From Helicobacter apodemus (GTDB lineage Bacteria > Campylobacterota > Campylobacteria > Campylobacterales > Helicobacteraceae), in assembly GCF_000765745.2 (NCBI RefSeq), contig NZ_JRPC02000001.1:87648-151647 (forward strand): 64,000 nt of DNA, given 5' to 3'. The position numbers and the translations under genes are program-made. The notes below the pieces were generated by a model that did not search any database, was not told the DNA's origin, and saw only the letters and a program-made list of their open reading frames with translations. Below, piece after piece: positions 13,216 through 19,580 of this stretch (position 1 is its first letter; every line of letters begins with the position of its first letter).

Positions 13216-13772
13216 TTATAGTAATTTTTGTGCTTCCACATTTAAGCTAATTAAAATCCCATTTTCTTTATCCATATGCGGATAATACGCCTGTGAGTGG
13301 TCATCATAATTTTTATGTATCCTCTCTCTCCAATCATAAGGCTTGACATCACTAAATCCATTTTCTTCTAGCACTGCTTTTAAAGAATCGAAGTTATACA
13401 TAGTCTTGTGATAAATCACCCTCTCTCCCTCTTGGGTTTGTATTTCCATCCTGCCATAAAGGGGTCCTAGAATCTTGGATAAATCCGCACTCTTTTGATA
13501 CGCTAAAATGAGCTTATCAAAATCAGGCACTGCTAAACGCAATACCCCCCCCCCGCTAATACCCTACGCCACTCTTGCAAAAGAGCTTTTACTTCAATCC
13601 TATCAAAATATGCAAGGGAATGGCTACTATAGATTAAATCAACACTTCCATCCTCAAACATATCTAATTTATCAATACTTGTTTTATAATGAATATGTGG
13701 CATATCGCATAAATCAACATTAATAAAACCTGGTATATTCCTATGCCAACATCCTAAATTAAGCTTCACCAT
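13216..13772 (-). CDS. SAM-dependent methyltransferase, phase-variable, out of frame here
   Basis: One gene is split by a tract of ten G (13545-13554). The first part (from 13772) reads VKLNLGCWHRNIPGFINVD (SAM-binding loop) and DLIYSSHSLAYF, reaches WRRVLAGGG and stops 4 codons after the tract. The second part (to 13216) continues with LRLAVPDFDKLILAY. With eleven (or eight) G the frames join as VLAGGGVLRLAVPDFD, the usual beta-5 region of this fold, giving a 185-residue protein. The gene is therefore OFF in this sequence. It would methylate a sugar of the surface glycan. The 5' end overlaps the acetyltransferase by 14 bases. Confidence 0.85.
13545..13554 (-). repeat. Poly-G tract (10 G) inside the methyltransferase gene
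   Basis: Ten consecutive G on the coding strand. Slipped-strand mispairing would change length; 11 or 8 G restore the frame, 10 and 9 G give early stops (TAG, TGA). Confidence 0.9.
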
Positions 13773-14298
13773 ATTTTATTCCATCCTTATAAATTGCTTT
13801 TTCTAACTCTAAAATATTCCTACTTCTCTCACTCATTCTTTTTGCGGGAATACCAAAATAGATTCCAAAAGGCTTTGTTGGTTGCATAAGTAGGCTCATA
13901 GCACCCACAGCCACCCCTTCAGCCAAATACGCCCCGGGCAAAATCACTGAATTTACCCCCACAACACTATGTCTTTCAAAAATAATTTTGCTTTTTGTAA
14001 CTTTTTGGTATTTTTCATCCACTAAAGGCACGACTAATCCCTCTCCTTTAAAATCCGATGATTCCGTAAAAACTTTTACGCCCGATGATACGCTTGAAAA
14101 ATCTCTCATCTCTATACCCGCCCCACCATTTAAAAACACATAAGAGGCTATATGCACATAATTCCCTATACAAATATCCCCCGATAAAATGCAAAAACTC
14201 CCTATACGGACATTGCTTCCTAGGGAGATTTTATCAGGATGATAAATAGGCGTAAGCCTATCTATTAACACATTCTCACCTAAATTTCTAAAATTCAT
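13759..14298 (-). CDS. Left-handed beta-helix acetyltransferase, phase-variable 5' end
   Basis: This hexapeptide-repeat acyltransferase (NeuD/WbbJ/CysE-like fold) has isoleucine-rich hexads such as ISLGSNVRIGSFCILSG, ICIGNYVHIAS and VVGVNSVILPGAYLAEGVAVGA, and closes with FGIYFGIPAKRM. It would O- or N-acetylate a glycan sugar. The ATG at 14298 has GGAG nine bases upstream. However, in-frame codons upstream encode FYSREELLA, the normal N terminus of this family. The likely full start is the ATG at 14360, overlapping the cupin stop (TAATG), and the two are separated by a 12-G tract that is out of frame here (10 or 13 G needed). As sequenced, only the shorter form is available. Confidence 0.8.
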   Translation of the reverse strand: MNFRNLGENVLIDRLTPIYHPDKISLGSNVRIGSFCILSGDICIGNYVHIASYVFLNGGAGIEMRDFSSVSSGVKVFTESSDFKGEGLVVPLVDEKYQKVTKSKIIFERHSVVGVNSVILPGAYLAEGVAVGAMSLLMQPTKPFGIYFGIPAKRMSERSRNILELEKAIYKDGIKYGEA

Positions 14299-14326: not shown

Positions 14327-14338
14327 CCCCCCCCCCCC
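14327..14338 (-). repeat. Poly-G tract (12 G) at the 5' end of the acetyltransferase gene
   Basis: Twelve G on the coding strand, seven codons after an ATG at 14360. With 12 G that frame ends at a TAG after the peptide DFIQERSY. With 13 or 10 G it runs into FYSREELLAM and the acetyltransferase. Confidence 0.85.
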
Positions 14339-14767: not shown

Positions 14768-15289
14768 TTAATAATAATCCCTATCCGATAAGATAGGCTT
14801 TTTACAATTCCATTCAATCCCAATTACTTTGTCATTCCACGCATAAGTAAATTGATGAGGGGCATCAAAATATTCCCCCTCATAGGCAAGTTTATAGTGA
14901 TAAACCGCATTTTGGCTTCGCACATAATAAGCATTCCCCATATTAGGAGGGAGAAGAATCATCTTTTGCTTTTCTTTATGGATTTCAAAGCCTTCCCATT
15001 GAAGATAAGTCGGGCTATCTTTGCGGCAATCTACCACCACCTGAAAAATGCTTCCATACACACAAGTAACATATTTCCACGATTTATTATCGCCGTGTAT
15101 TCCACGCAAGACATTATGGTGAGATTGTGAAAATTTATCGTGTTTGAAATGTAGGTTATGTGGTAAGAGATTTTCTATTCTTTCTTTTAAAAATGAAGTC
15201 CAAATATCCCCGCGTCTATCTTGTGAGATAGTAGGGGTTATGATATAAACGCCTTGTATTTTTTGGCTCTCTTTAATTATAAATTCCAT
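14768..15289 (-). CDS. RmlC-family nucleotide-sugar 3,5-epimerase
   Basis: This 173-residue dTDP-4-dehydrorhamnose 3,5-epimerase-type cupin has the N-terminal IQGVYIITPTISQDRRGDIW strand pair. The catalytic His is in HHNVLRGIHGD, followed by the strand VTCVYGSIFQVVVDCRKDSPTY and the tyrosine-rich NAYYVRS. With GDP-mannose dehydratase and GDP-fucose synthase-like genes around it, the substrate is more likely a GDP-4-keto-6-deoxy hexose or heptose (as with the C. jejuni heptose-modifying epimerases) than dTDP-rhamnose, since rmlA/B/D are not here. The ATG overlaps the fcl stop (TAATG). Confidence 0.75.
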   Translation of the reverse strand: MEFIIKESQKIQGVYIITPTISQDRRGDIWTSFLKERIENLLPHNLHFKHDKFSQSHHNVLRGIHGDNKSWKYVTCVYGSIFQVVVDCRKDSPTYLQWEGFEIHKEKQKMILLPPNMGNAYYVRSQNAVYHYKLAYEGEYFDAPHQFTYAWNDKVIGIEWNCKKPILSDRDYY

Positions 15290-16392
15290 TATGCAACCTC
15301 CAAATTATCGTTGCATAAGAATCTAACTAAAGAGGTATTACCCCCCCCCCCGCTAGAGGCTATATACCATTCATACATCATTTTTACTCCTTGCTCTAGT
15401 GTTATTTGGTATTTCCAACCTAGATTATTCATCCTTGAACAATCTGTTTTTTTAAGCATCATTCCATCTGGTTTTTGGGTATTAAACACAAACTCTCCCT
15501 CAAAACCCACGATTTCTTTGATGATTAAAGCAATATCTGCAATGCTATAATCTACGCCTGAGCCAATATTAATATGCGTATTCCTAATAGGCTTATGAGA
15601 ACATAAATCTTTAAAATCCACATTTTGCATTACAAATACACACGCACTTGCCATATCTTTAGAGTATAAAAGTTCTCTCCTTGGCTTCCCACTACCCCAA
15701 ATCTCTACAGAATCTTTTTTAATACCAAACTTTGCTAAATATTCCTCTGCACTCTCCCAATCTTTGAGATTTAAATCTTTTAAAATAGCCTCTCTTTTGT
15801 TTTGATGCAGTAGTTTTGCTAAATGCATTTTTCTAAGCAATGCCGGGATAAGATGGGATTTCTCTAAATCAAAATTATCATTTTCTCCATAGAGATTAGT
15901 TGGCATTACAGAAATAAAATTTGTCCCATATTGCAAATTATAAGACTCGCACATTTTTAATCCCGCAATTTTTGCAATCGCATAAGGCTCATTAGTATAT
16001 TCTAACTCACTACTTAAGAGAGCATCTTCACACATAGGTTGTTTGGCGTTTTTGGGATAAATACAAGTGGAACCTAAAAACAAAAGTTTTTTTACCCCAT
16101 TGACATAAGAAGCGTGAATCACATTATTTTGAATACTCAAATTTTGGTAAATAAATTCTGCCCGATAAGTATTATTTGCTAGGATTCCACCCACTTTTGC
16201 AGCACTTAAAAAAACATAATCTGGCTTTGTTAAAGCAAAAAACTCTGCTACCTCACTTTGGTTGGTTAAATCTAACTCTTGGTGTGTTTTAACGACTATA
16301 TTAGTATAACCTCGCCTTTGGAGCTCTTTGATAATCGCACTCCCTACAAGTCCTCTATGTCCTGCAACATAGATTTTAGAATCCTTTTTCAT
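15289..16392 (-). CDS. fcl: GDP-L-fucose synthase-like reductase/epimerase with a phase-variable tail
   Basis: This short-chain dehydrogenase of 367 residues has VAGHRGLVGSAI (NADPH-binding loop), AAKVGGILANN, the catalytic GSTCIYPK and YAIAK (Tyr-xxx-Lys), and WGSGKPRREL. It would perform 3,5-epimerisation and 4-reduction of GDP-4-keto-6-deoxymannose or a related GDP-sugar. It has a longer insert before WGSG than E. coli Fcl. The normal C terminus (MMYEWYIA) is followed by a poly-G tract encoding Gly348-351 and 16 further residues. In this 11-G state the stop overlaps the next ATG. Confidence 0.85.
   Translation of the reverse strand: MKKDSKIYVAGHRGLVGSAIIKELQRRGYTNIVVKTHQELDLTNQSEVAEFFALTKPDYVFLSAAKVGGILANNTYRAEFIYQNLSIQNNVIHASYVNGVKKLLFLGSTCIYPKNAKQPMCEDALLSSELEYTNEPYAIAKIAGLKMCESYNLQYGTNFISVMPTNLYGENDNFDLEKSHLIPALLRKMHLAKLLHQNKREAILKDLNLKDWESAEEYLAKFGIKKDSVEIWGSGKPRRELLYSKDMASACVFVMQNVDFKDLCSHKPIRNTHINIGSGVDYSIADIALIIKEIVGFEGEFVFNTQKPDGMMLKKTDCSRMNNLGWKYQITLEQGVKMMYEWYIASSGGGGNTSLVRFLCNDNLEVA
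15341..15351 (-). repeat. Poly-G tract (11 G) near the 3' end of fcl
   Basis: With 11 G the frame reads through to a stop that overlaps the start of the RmlC-like gene. With 12 G a TAA follows the tract at once; with 10 G a TAG follows after four codons. The tract alters only the tail and the distance to the next gene, not the catalytic domain. Confidence 0.9.
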
Positions 16393-16393
16393 T

Positions 16394-17314
16394 CTACTCC
16401 TTAAAATAAATAGGTATTTCTGGATTGGAGGGGTGATTAGGATAATCTAATCCCTCTAATATACCCTCTACTACTTTTTCTTTAGAAAATGGAATTTCTC
16501 CTTTTTTCATATAACTAACCTCCAAAGTTGTGCCAAAAAATAATCCTTGTGAGTAGAAAATCTTTCCATGATTATTAAAATGAAGATGTATAGGTTCATA
16601 ATACTCATTAATCTTTTCTAATACTTTCAATCGCCTTTTAGCACCCTCATCCTCTTCAGGATTACATCCATGAAATTCAAAAATTACTTGCGTAAAATAT
16701 TCTGCCACTAAAGCTAAATCTACCTGCTCTAAAACTTCCCATTCTGCATTTTCAATATCAACTTGCAAGATGTTTGCCATCTTCTTCAAATGATTGTCTT
16801 CAATAATAGAAGATAAAGAAATACAATTCTCACCCACTCCTACAAAACGCTTATGGAAAGCAATATTGGGATGATTATAGGGACATTGTTCTATACTTCC
16901 ATCATATTCAACAACTTGATAACCCCTCTGTGCCATTTCTAAATCCCAAGGGGAACTCTCACTAACACCTAATGAAATGGCTTTTACTTCATTCAAAGGG
17001 ATTCCCCCCCCCCCCGAAGAACACAAAAGGTTAGGCTTATACATCACATATCCTCCATCACCTTTGCCACCTACTCTAACTAAATCTTCATAAGCCACTT
17101 TGATAGGCTGTAAAATTTCTAAATATTTTTGGATATTTTCCAAACATTGTTGGTTATGATTAATACGGACATAGTTCCTATCTCTATCTTGCAAAAGCAA
17201 TAATAAAATTTGCTTATCTTCCTCTTTTATAAGAGAATGAATAATAATATTAGACATTAAAAGATTGTAATGAATTTGCGTATTTTGCCTTATAGCCTCT
17301 TCAAGTTTTTTCAT
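16394..17314 (-). CDS. FkbM-like methyltransferase, phase-variable, in frame here
   Basis: This 306-residue protein has a helical N terminus (1-70), then DLVRVGGKGDGGYVM and AISLGVSESSPWDLEMAQRG (nucleotide-binding loop). VDIENAEWEVLEQ near residue 185, with the Asp-Ile-Glu typical of FkbM-type methyltransferases, follows, then IFEFHG. Proteins of this sort occur in Campylobacter capsule loci. A 12-G tract encodes Gly101-104 between the GGYVM motif and the SAM loop; it is in frame, so the gene is ON. Any tract change not divisible by three would truncate the protein near residue 105-110. The substrate is unknown. Confidence 0.7.
   Translation of the reverse strand: MKKLEEAIRQNTQIHYNLLMSNIIIHSLIKEEDKQILLLLLQDRDRNYVRINHNQQCLENIQKYLEILQPIKVAYEDLVRVGGKGDGGYVMYKPNLLCSSGGGGIPLNEVKAISLGVSESSPWDLEMAQRGYQVVEYDGSIEQCPYNHPNIAFHKRFVGVGENCISLSSIIEDNHLKKMANILQVDIENAEWEVLEQVDLALVAEYFTQVIFEFHGCNPEEDEGAKRRLKVLEKINEYYEPIHLHFNNHGKIFYSQGLFFGTTLEVSYMKKGEIPFSKEKVVEGILEGLDYPNHPSNPEIPIYFKE
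17004..17015 (-). repeat. Poly-G tract (12 G) inside the FkbM-like gene
   Basis: Twelve G encode four glycines and keep the frame open. This is a mid-gene on/off tract in the ON state. Confidence 0.9.
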
Positions 17315-17316
17315 AA

Positions 17317-17508
17317 CTACTCCTTAAATAATAAGATTTTAAAATGAAAGTCCTTAGTCCAATCCTTGCAAGATTGGCAACATTGAAAAACAGCAGAAAA
17401 AGAAGTTCTTAAGAAAATAAAATATATTTGTAGAATAATAAAAGCAGTAAATAGTAATTCGACAAATAAATATCTAATTAATATATATCTATTTAATCCC
17501 CCCCCCCC
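17317..17508 (-). other. Poly-G tract (11 G) with a cryptic 59-codon open tail
   Basis: The tract at 17498-17508 closes the fusion gene with VLGGGD and TAA. With 12 (or 9) G the frame would stay open for 59 more codons (17496-17320), encoding a hydrophobic run (LLFTAFIILQIYFIF) followed by FQCCQSCKDW. It would stop at TAG 17319-17317, two bases before the ATG of the FkbM-like gene. No ATG, GTG or TTG lies in that frame, so only a tract change could express it. With 10 G it stops after two codons (IK). Confidence 0.7.
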
Positions 17509-19580
17509 AACACTTCAGCAAGCAAGAGGATAGAATCTTTAATATCTACTTGATGATTCCCTACGAAAAACCCATTTTTATGCAAATGCTGTGCATTTTT
17601 GAGTATTCCAAACACTTCATAATCAAAAAACCGCATTACTTCATTTTGCGTAAAATCCCCAGTAACAATAGGGCGACATTCTATATTGTTAGCTTGAAGT
17701 TTTTGGATTACCTCTTGGCGATTAAGTGTAGAATTTTTTCGGATAATCAGTGAAAAGCCAAACCACGAACTAGAAGATATTTCTTTTTGTATCATAAAAT
17801 CCGGATGGTTTTGAAAATATTGCTTAAAAATCTTTGCATTCTCTCTGCGATGTTTTAAAAAATTTGGCAATTTCTTTAACTGCTCTATCCCAATAGCACC
17901 GCTCATTTCTACTGGACGAACATTATATCCGGGCAAGACAAAGCGAAAAGATTCACTAAAGCTATCCTCGCTTTTAGGGGCTATCTTATTATCTTTTGGT
18001 AAATTTCTAGTCCAACCATGCGCTCTTAAACAAAGTAAAATATGATAAAGCTCTTCATCGTCTGTTACGACAAGCCCTCCCTCCATCGTCGCCATATGGT
18101 GGGAAAAAAAGGTAGAAAATGTCCCCATAATCCCAAATGTACCTGCTTGCTTACCCTTATATTCCGCCCCCATAGATTCACAATTATCCTCTAATAGCAA
18201 AATATCTTTATTCCCAATAATTTCTTGAATCTTGTCAAAATCATTAGGATTCCCAAGTAAATTCACTACCATAATCATTTTGGTCTTTTCACTAATGGCA
18301 CCACTTAGAGCCTCTAAATCATAATTGAGCGTTTCTAAATCAATATCAACAAACTTCAATTTCAAACCATATTGATATAAAGGATAATAAGTTGTAGCCC
18401 AAGAAACTGCTGGGACAATAACCTCATCACCCCTTTGTAGTTTATGCTTACTTGTATAAAATAGGGCAGCAGTTGCAATTAAATTTGCAGTAGAACCCGA
18501 ACTTGTCATTACCGCATATTTAGCACCTACATAAGCAGCAAAGTTTTTTTCAAACTCCGCAACCCTCGTCCCCATAGTAAAAATATCACTCTTTATAACC
18601 TCCTCTATAGCTTGTAATTCTTTATAATCCCAAGTTGATGAAGCTAAAGAATAATATTGCATCGTTACTCCTTTTAAAAAATATTTGTAAGTCTTTTCTA
18701 TACCCTCTTTTAAACTTGTATTAGAACTCCAACCAAATTCTTTTAAATGGGTAATATCAACAAGTTTTTGTGCCATTCCTTCTGGCTTTTGTGTATTATA
18801 AACAAAATCTCCTTTATAACCTATAACCTCCGCTATAGCTTCATAATACTCTGTGATACTAAAATCTTCACCCCTGCCAACATTAAGAACCTTTGGCATT
18901 CTCTCAAAGTTTTTTAAAGCATAATATACAAAATCTGCCAAATCCTCCACATACATAAACTCTCTTCTAGCTTTTCCGCTTCCCCAAATCTCCACTTCCT
19001 TAGCTCCACTCTTTTTAGCACTATGTATTTTTGCAATCACTGCTGGAAGCATATGGGCTTTATTAATCTCAAATTTATCGTATTTACCATATAAATTGCA
19101 AGGTATGGCTGTTTTATAAAGTTTATTTTTAGAATCTAAAATATATTCACAAAGCTTGGTAGAAACAATCTTGGCTAACGCATAACCCTCATTGGTAGGC
19201 TCTAATCCTCCATTTAGAATCAAATCTTCACTTAAAGGATTTTTGCCTTCTTTAGGATACATACAAGAGCTTGCGATATTTAAAAACTTCTCGACCCCAC
19301 ACTCTAAAGCAGCCATTATAATATTCAAACCCATAGAAACATTTTGGCTTAAAAATTCAACAGGATTTGCAATATTTGCACTAATCCCACCTACAAGCCC
19401 AGCACAATGCACAATAATATTAGGTTTATGTCTTTTAAGATAAGCCAATACTTGTGTTTTATCTAATAAATTTAATTCCTCTCTTTTAGGGGCTAAAATC
19501 TCATAAAATTGAGCTTCTTTGTATTCTACAATATTACGCCCAACCATTCCGGTAGAACCTGTAATTAAGATTTTATTCAT
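17493..19580 (-). CDS. Fused ColC/WbcJ-like reductase and ColD-like 3-dehydratase
   Basis: This 695-residue fusion has two enzymes. Residues 1-306 are a short-chain dehydrogenase of the WbcJ/ColC/Fcl type ([38 protein letters not shown]). Residues 307-695 match GDP-4-keto-6-deoxymannose 3-dehydratase (ColD): [23 protein letters not shown], and [15 protein letters not shown], where His494 (His188 counted from Met307) stands in place of the PLP lysine, then [12 protein letters not shown] and [15 protein letters not shown]. Together these make GDP-L-colitose from GDP-4-keto-6-deoxymannose. There is no stop between the parts, yet AAAAGGAG and ATG are retained at the junction. It ends in an 11-G tract. 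The start overlaps gmd by 8 bases. Confidence 0.88.
18660..18675 (-). promoter_or_regulatory. Internal ribosome binding site and ATG of the ColD part
   Basis: AAAAGGAG (18668-18675) lies five bases upstream of an ATG (18662-18660) that begins the ColD-like domain exactly where free-standing ColD begins. Translation could start here as well as read through from the upstream domain. Confidence 0.65.

Follow-up and report, generated by a model that had tools for sequence, protein, structure and literature searches.

Within the window analysed here, a 64,000-nucleotide (nt) stretch of the 2.07-Mb draft genome of Helicobacter apodemus (contig NZ_JRPC02000001.1, positions 87,648 to 151,647), colC and colD are read as a single minus-strand open reading frame (ORF; 17493–19580; 695 amino acids, aa), with an NAD epimerase domain (Pfam PF01370) followed by a DegT aminotransferase-fold domain (DegT_DnrJ_EryC1, PF01041). 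The 3′ end of colD carries a run of 11 G (G11; 17498–17508, C11 on the plus strand), beyond which three frames diverge. The current frame terminates immediately at TAA (17493–17495; protein end ...LGGGD*), and a second at TAG (17489–17491) two codons further on (...GGGIK*). The third, entered with 9 or 12 G and currently not in use, stays open for 59 codons (17320–17496; hereafter the tail) up to a TAG (17317–17319) lying 2 nt (TT) ahead of the ATG (17314) of a methyltransferase gene. The AAGGAG Shine-Dalgarno sequence of that gene (17320–17325) supplies the last two tail codons in frame, the stop follows it directly, and the tail frame contains no ATG, GTG or TTG codon. An earlier note on this DNA had described the same frames, the same distance from stop to start and the same lack of a start codon within the tail, and is exact on each. 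It had also called such an open frame unlikely by chance, which for this locus by itself holds only to a moderate degree: of dinucleotide shuffles of the 183-nt gap, 2.7% keep at least one frame open as far as the next gene, and 0.3% combine a single open frame with two early stops. The weight of the finding therefore comes from relatives, where the arrangement recurs. Two promoter-like sites were predicted in the gap between colD and the methyltransferase gene, against 2.7 expected, and no terminators.

In the window colC reads in frame, with no stop, through the ribosome-binding site (RBS) and ATG of colD (18661–18680, LKGVTMQYY; colD start at 18663), giving the single 695-aa ORF; in Helicobacter mesocricetorum, of the same genus, colC (a 306-aa frame) and colD were matched as separate frames. 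The database protein nearest to the window protein (P0001, 700 aa) ends in GGGNKINIY, and an allele with other sequence after the tract seems to exist.

Relatives of colD were sought in the family of H. apodemus (f1; 121 genomes, 13 matches at E≤1e-100), in the family that holds Campylobacter bilis (f11; 153 genomes, 16 matches) and across the order (398 genomes, 19 matches, 13 of them in other families), and 42 loci were read (13 from f1, 16 from f11 and 13 from other families), a tract being counted where at least 7 G stand at the colD end. A 3′ tract of G8–G13 is present in 23 of the 42, with 12/13 in f1, 11/16 in f11 and 0/13 in other families. In the remaining f1 locus, L158, the match is limited to the first 256 query residues and a stop follows shortly in that frame, so that its colD end could not be assessed. 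Two f11 lineages lacking an intact tract are both set in the tail frame: L140, with an interrupted run (GGGGTGGG), and L147, with no G run, each read on without a frame change into a tail whose stop overlaps the next start. The L147 tail contains an in-frame (GA)n repeat, possibly a substitute slippery repeat. Among the 13 loci from other families the colD stop overlaps the next ATG (offset −4) in five, and the ATG follows 1–3 nt later in three more. Tractless relatives end like the short frames (e.g. LAEVLK*), and in six of them stop and next ATG overlap (offset −4). By this comparison short-frame ColD ends about where tractless relatives end, and because of that match ColD would be made in all three frames; truncation of the gene's own product in an off state, as in classical simple sequence repeat (SSR) phase variation, was not found.

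One frame stays open in all 23 colD tract loci, for 10–72 codons. In each of the 22 with a visible next gene its stop falls −17 to +10 nt from the next ATG (+2 in the window), a position within ribosome reach of the downstream start that is attained by the tail frame alone. In 22/23 loci (the exception being L146) each of the other two frames meets a stop within four codons, as against 25 of 101 tracts that have more than 130 codons following in one frame (Mann-Whitney p 9e-9, a value that serves only as a guide because the loci are related). The next gene encodes a methyltransferase in the window and in H. mesocricetorum and an epimerase-like protein in L048 and L145 (judged from the protein start), and in 18 other tract loci it starts like a deoxythymidine diphosphate (dTDP)-sugar-epimerase-like protein. 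The tail frame is the current one in 11 of the 23. Coupling to the downstream gene, as predicted in the earlier note, is well supported by this comparative evidence, the frame being open to the next start in 22/22 whatever gene follows, and stops in the tail frame of orthologues, which the note had named as telling against its proposal, did not occur. Codon-level conservation in relatives, which it had put forward as a check, was found for the open frame and not for the peptide. Tail sequences are mostly unrelated, and between the window and H. mesocricetorum (L149) 15 tail codons are identical, 3 differ synonymously and 37 nonsynonymously. What is conserved is an open frame reaching the next start, not a peptide.

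The tract appears unstable in length, varying from G8 to G13 between loci, and one gap is seen in both tail and short frames: L136 and L045 have a common gap, preceded by G8 (tail frame) in the former and by G9 (short frame) in the latter. Similarly, H. winghamensis P0075 is in the tail frame and genome G018, with the same tail, in a short frame. A database search with the ColD part (8000 candidates scored, 6823 at E≤1e-150) gave further examples. Among the best 120 of these 6823 proteins, 51 lack a terminal G run, whereas 49 continue past one into a tail of 14 or more residues and 20 have a shorter end; within the same 120, one Campylobacter colD type is represented by 41 proteins with the tail and 13 with other, shorter ends, and another type by 4 with the tail and 4 with other ends.

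A wider survey covered regions round all 76 tracts of at least 9 G (G9+) in the H. apodemus genome, all G9+ places of G061 and G113 (37 and 35), 69 of the 140 G9+ places of G537 together with its colD region, 16 colD regions in total and 30 further loci. Of 283 distinct tracts of at least 8 G (G8+), 43 combine a coupled tail with two early-stopping frames, a class to which the colD loci belong, as does a pair of neighbouring tracts in a single gene (L163); the others have fewer than 80 open codons upstream (162), lie mid-gene (45), have short continuations in every frame (20), are mixed (12) or lie at an edge (1). The tail frame is current in 26/43, or in 24/41 when duplicate tails are removed (p 0.0008 against one third). 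Coupled-tail tracts are also found serially, with five in region L166, four in L165 and three in L169. Proteins were assigned for L166 alone; there the tracts lie in genes for ColD and Fcl-like epimerases, and the genes they lead into encode dTDP-sugar isomerases or further epimerases. The 12.9-kb Campylobacter jejuni 414 locus (L041) has no 3′-terminal tract by the same rule. Three large genes of the H. apodemus genome (C35:4431, C43:26861 and C139:49049) share the same sequence round a 3′ G10–G12 tract, with three short ends of 7–25 codons and no coupled next gene by the rule.

Starts downstream of such tracts tend to be masked by predicted RNA structure. Mean P(unpaired), the probability of being unpaired, is 0.328 for 45 targets and 0.510 for 139 control genes (p 6e-12), and structure is stronger than in shuffled sequences (z<−2) in 24/45 targets compared with 8/138 controls (p 1e-10). 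Where stems are present they are mostly near-perfect inverted repeats, differing in sequence between genes, their 5′ arm lying within the tail and their 3′ arm covering the RBS or start (5′/3′ arms: TGCAACCTTTAGG/CTTAAAGGTTGCA in L150; TTATTATGCAGCC/GGCTGCATAATGG in L151; CATTACAGATC/GATCTGTAATG in L169).

The window contains a second selector of this kind. The gene following colD, predicted to be gated by the colD tract, encodes a 306-aa FkbM-type methyltransferase (16394–17314, minus strand, as are the G tracts, the next two genes and the hairpin of this paragraph; PF05050) and itself contains a G12 tract (17004–17015), a classical coding-region tract now in frame. Next is an Fcl-like NAD epimerase gene (15289–16392; PF01370; match to NF047922 below its cut-off) with G11 near its end (15341–15351), now in the tail frame. 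The tail comprises 16 codons (NTSLVRFLCNDNLEVA) plus a TAA overlapping the next start (TAATG; 15289–15339), and the remaining two frames terminate after 0 and 3 codons. The gene coupled to this selector encodes a dTDP-sugar 3,5-epimerase-like protein (14768–15289; PF00908), and the hairpin predicted over its start (z −3.02) has its 5′ arm within the tail (TTATGCAAC; 15310–15318) and its 3′ arm running from beside the RBS into the start codon (GTTGCATAA; 15289–15297). Two other tracts lie nearby. A C12 run at 14327–14338, which lies at the 5′ end of a hexapeptide-transferase gene (13759–14298) or slightly upstream of it, resembles a classical 5′ tract, and a C10 run at 13545–13554 is preceded by 72 open codons and followed by 108 in another frame, the spanning gene apparently being out of frame at present.

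The three frames, the stop positions and their recurrence across species and across different downstream genes can be read directly from the DNA. Together they suggest that the colD tract is a 3′-terminal frame selector. Its probable effect is not a membrane anchor on ColD but phase-variable translational coupling, by which translation of the downstream gene would be turned on or off. As cells grow, slippage in the tract would shift the colD frame. A ribosome in the tail frame would read across the gap, open the start region of the next gene and stop there, and it or another ribosome would then initiate; ribosomes in either of the other frames would leave upstream, the next start then being little used, masked or unreached. 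In most relatives with short gaps, and at the second selector of the window, the hairpin would be a lock that only a ribosome in the tail frame opens. RNA left uncovered past an early stop may in addition be exposed to Rho, and a rho gene is present in the H. apodemus genome. The colD-methyltransferase junction shows no hairpin beyond chance, so gating there would fall to distance, Rho polarity or both. More tentatively, and perhaps with slightly less than even chances, such selectors could constitute a distinct class of contingency element, defined by a slippery 3′ tract, an upstream gene intact in all frames and ribosomes that open a hairpin lock, with arrays of up to five per sugar-nucleotide operon forming a heritable combinatorial code for surface sugars.

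Several observations weigh against selection of the next gene's expression by the tract. Some open frame is retained by chance in 55–95% of shuffles of gaps up to 92 nt and in 40–45% of those of 102–104 nt, and the related loci are not independent. The G-run length in a draft assembly, as in the window, could be a sequencing error, as could some of the length differences between loci, homopolymers being concerned in both cases. The 43-tract class was found by a mechanical rule that requires early stops and surely includes some chance or true-coding cases; in genus g19 (f11; three genomes, 31 G8+ places, 30 loci read) L295 alone met this rule, with a tail of 114 codons that is more like coding sequence, and L321 met it loosely. 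L141 and L148 (both f11) show neither tract nor coupling, and L139 (f11) has a direct stop-start overlap and no tract. As to structure, one locus was entered twice among the 45 hairpin targets (L049/L167:9934), and z<−2 was obtained in 23/34 gaps of up to 125 nt but in 1/11 longer ones. The methyltransferase start in the window is no more structured than chance (z 0.59 and −0.32; P(unpaired) 0.466), and this gene carries a good AAGGAG of its own. One alternative would be chance throughout, an AT-rich gap with one open frame behind a tract that happens to sit at a gene end, and both the frequency of open frames in short-gap shuffles and the 2.7% at the window locus agree with it. Since open frames are so common in short gaps, the signal lies in the joint pattern, and the recurrence in 22/22 loci with different gaps and neighbours, the early stops in both other frames and the start-masking hairpins make coincidence highly improbable. 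We give just as little credence to the G tract being an RNA-level target or rheostat, paired by a small RNA (sRNA) of the RepG type, with the reading frame incidental. There is a parallel in H. pylori, where RepG controls tlpB-hp0102 through a G-repeat in the leader, according to the available part of one report (PMC8295292), but such pairing leaves unexplained why, in 22/23 loci, one frame runs on to the next start while the other two stop early, and an Rfam scan of the whole window gave no family at gathering score, RepG itself not having been searched for.

Two further alternatives place the effect of the switch on ColD itself. The earlier note had proposed that the tail adds a membrane anchor with a cysteine motif, that is, a functional C-terminal peptide that would relocate or modify ColD. 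In keeping with this, the colD tail of the window has a 19-residue Kyte-Doolittle mean of 2.33 and that of H. mesocricetorum one of 1.71, each contains 3 Cys, both include FTAF, and the two align with a score of 39 (shuffled, 16.8 ± 8.5). In ten pairwise tail alignments clear similarity was confined to close relatives, the window and L048, for example, scoring 14.0 against 8.6 ± 9.1 when shuffled. The window and H. mesocricetorum tails are the only two of 23 with a mean above 1.6, lengths range widely, the excess of nonsynonymous differences noted above holds even for this closest pair, and tail ends track the RBS of the next gene. An anchor as the general function was rejected because the tails diverge and so few are strongly hydrophobic, and a role of the peptide in ColD is decidedly unlikely. 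The tail might instead be a degradation tag like that encoded by ssrA, the tail frame then removing the enzyme. Many colD tails end in KAA or KVA, resembling the transfer-messenger RNA (tmRNA) tags (ANNANYAPAYAKAA/AKVA and ANNVKFAPAYAKAA) of seven of these genomes (L175–L181), which end in AKAA or AKVA. Ends in [AV]A occur in 10/15 TAATG/TGATG pairs with a tract of at least 8 G within 320 nt upstream and in 0/33 without one, and a few are not part of an RBS (L046 and L146; C118:60332 and C85:85728 in the H. apodemus genome). The resemblance arises mostly from in-frame reading of an RBS (AAGGYTGCATAATG). Where other genes follow, tails end in CNG, KEK, KE, KY or RL, and the colD tail of the window, one of the KE cases, ends in LLFKE, so that an ssrA-like C-terminus is present in many relatives and absent from this tail; moreover, L140 and L147 are set in the tail frame though neither has an intact tract. 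A degron is thus unlikely, if somewhat less so than an anchor.

If 3′-terminal tracts do select the expression of the following gene, as favoured here, a neighbour of a predicted sugar-making gene likely has an inherited on/off switch that leaves the sugar-making enzyme itself intact. An operon could then vary single pathway steps independently, its upstream enzyme never being broken. Tracts are usually read as switching the gene in which they lie, and on/off calls for surface sugars of Helicobacter and Campylobacter may accordingly be misassigned; some tracts classed as intergenic would also have a function. PhasomeIt, in the available part of its description, sorts tracts into coding, promoter and intergenic (PMC6321876). 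Among the titles and abstract openings listed, from a collection short of most subscription papers, none described 3′ tracts that are serial or locked by a hairpin.

The arrangement can be set beside several known systems, each described here from the accessible portion of its source. A review citing Kim et al. 2012 (PMC8355987) states that the 3′ tract of cj0045 may alter expression of cj0044, in either direction, the longer ORF overlapping the cj0044 start. This proposal is the direct precedent, since in both cases a G tract stands at a gene's 3′ end and the longer ORF reaches the next start. It concerns one gene pair, whereas the layout reported here extends over many species and occurs serially in sugar-nucleotide operons; the present loci also have two frames that stop early and in many cases a hairpin that masks the start, features that cj0045 may share. 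Classical SSR phase variation in coding tracts likewise depends on an unstable G tract and a product set by frame; unlike it, no frame here truncates the enzyme, and the switch is predicted to act on the neighbour. A documented case of translational coupling in C. jejuni is dba-dsbI (PMC3167755), where upstream translation through the junction is needed and junction secondary structure matters, as is predicted from sequence for many of the present loci; no slippery tract is described as setting the upstream frame of dba-dsbI. RepG and tlpB-hp0102 (PMC8295292) share with colD a G-repeat whose length matters and a lipopolysaccharide gene in the operon, but the repeat lies in a 5′ leader and acts through an sRNA, in a graded manner and with no frame logic. 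Finally, GeneTack (PMC3711429) treats its classes of frame transition as alternatives, whereas a single site would have both here.
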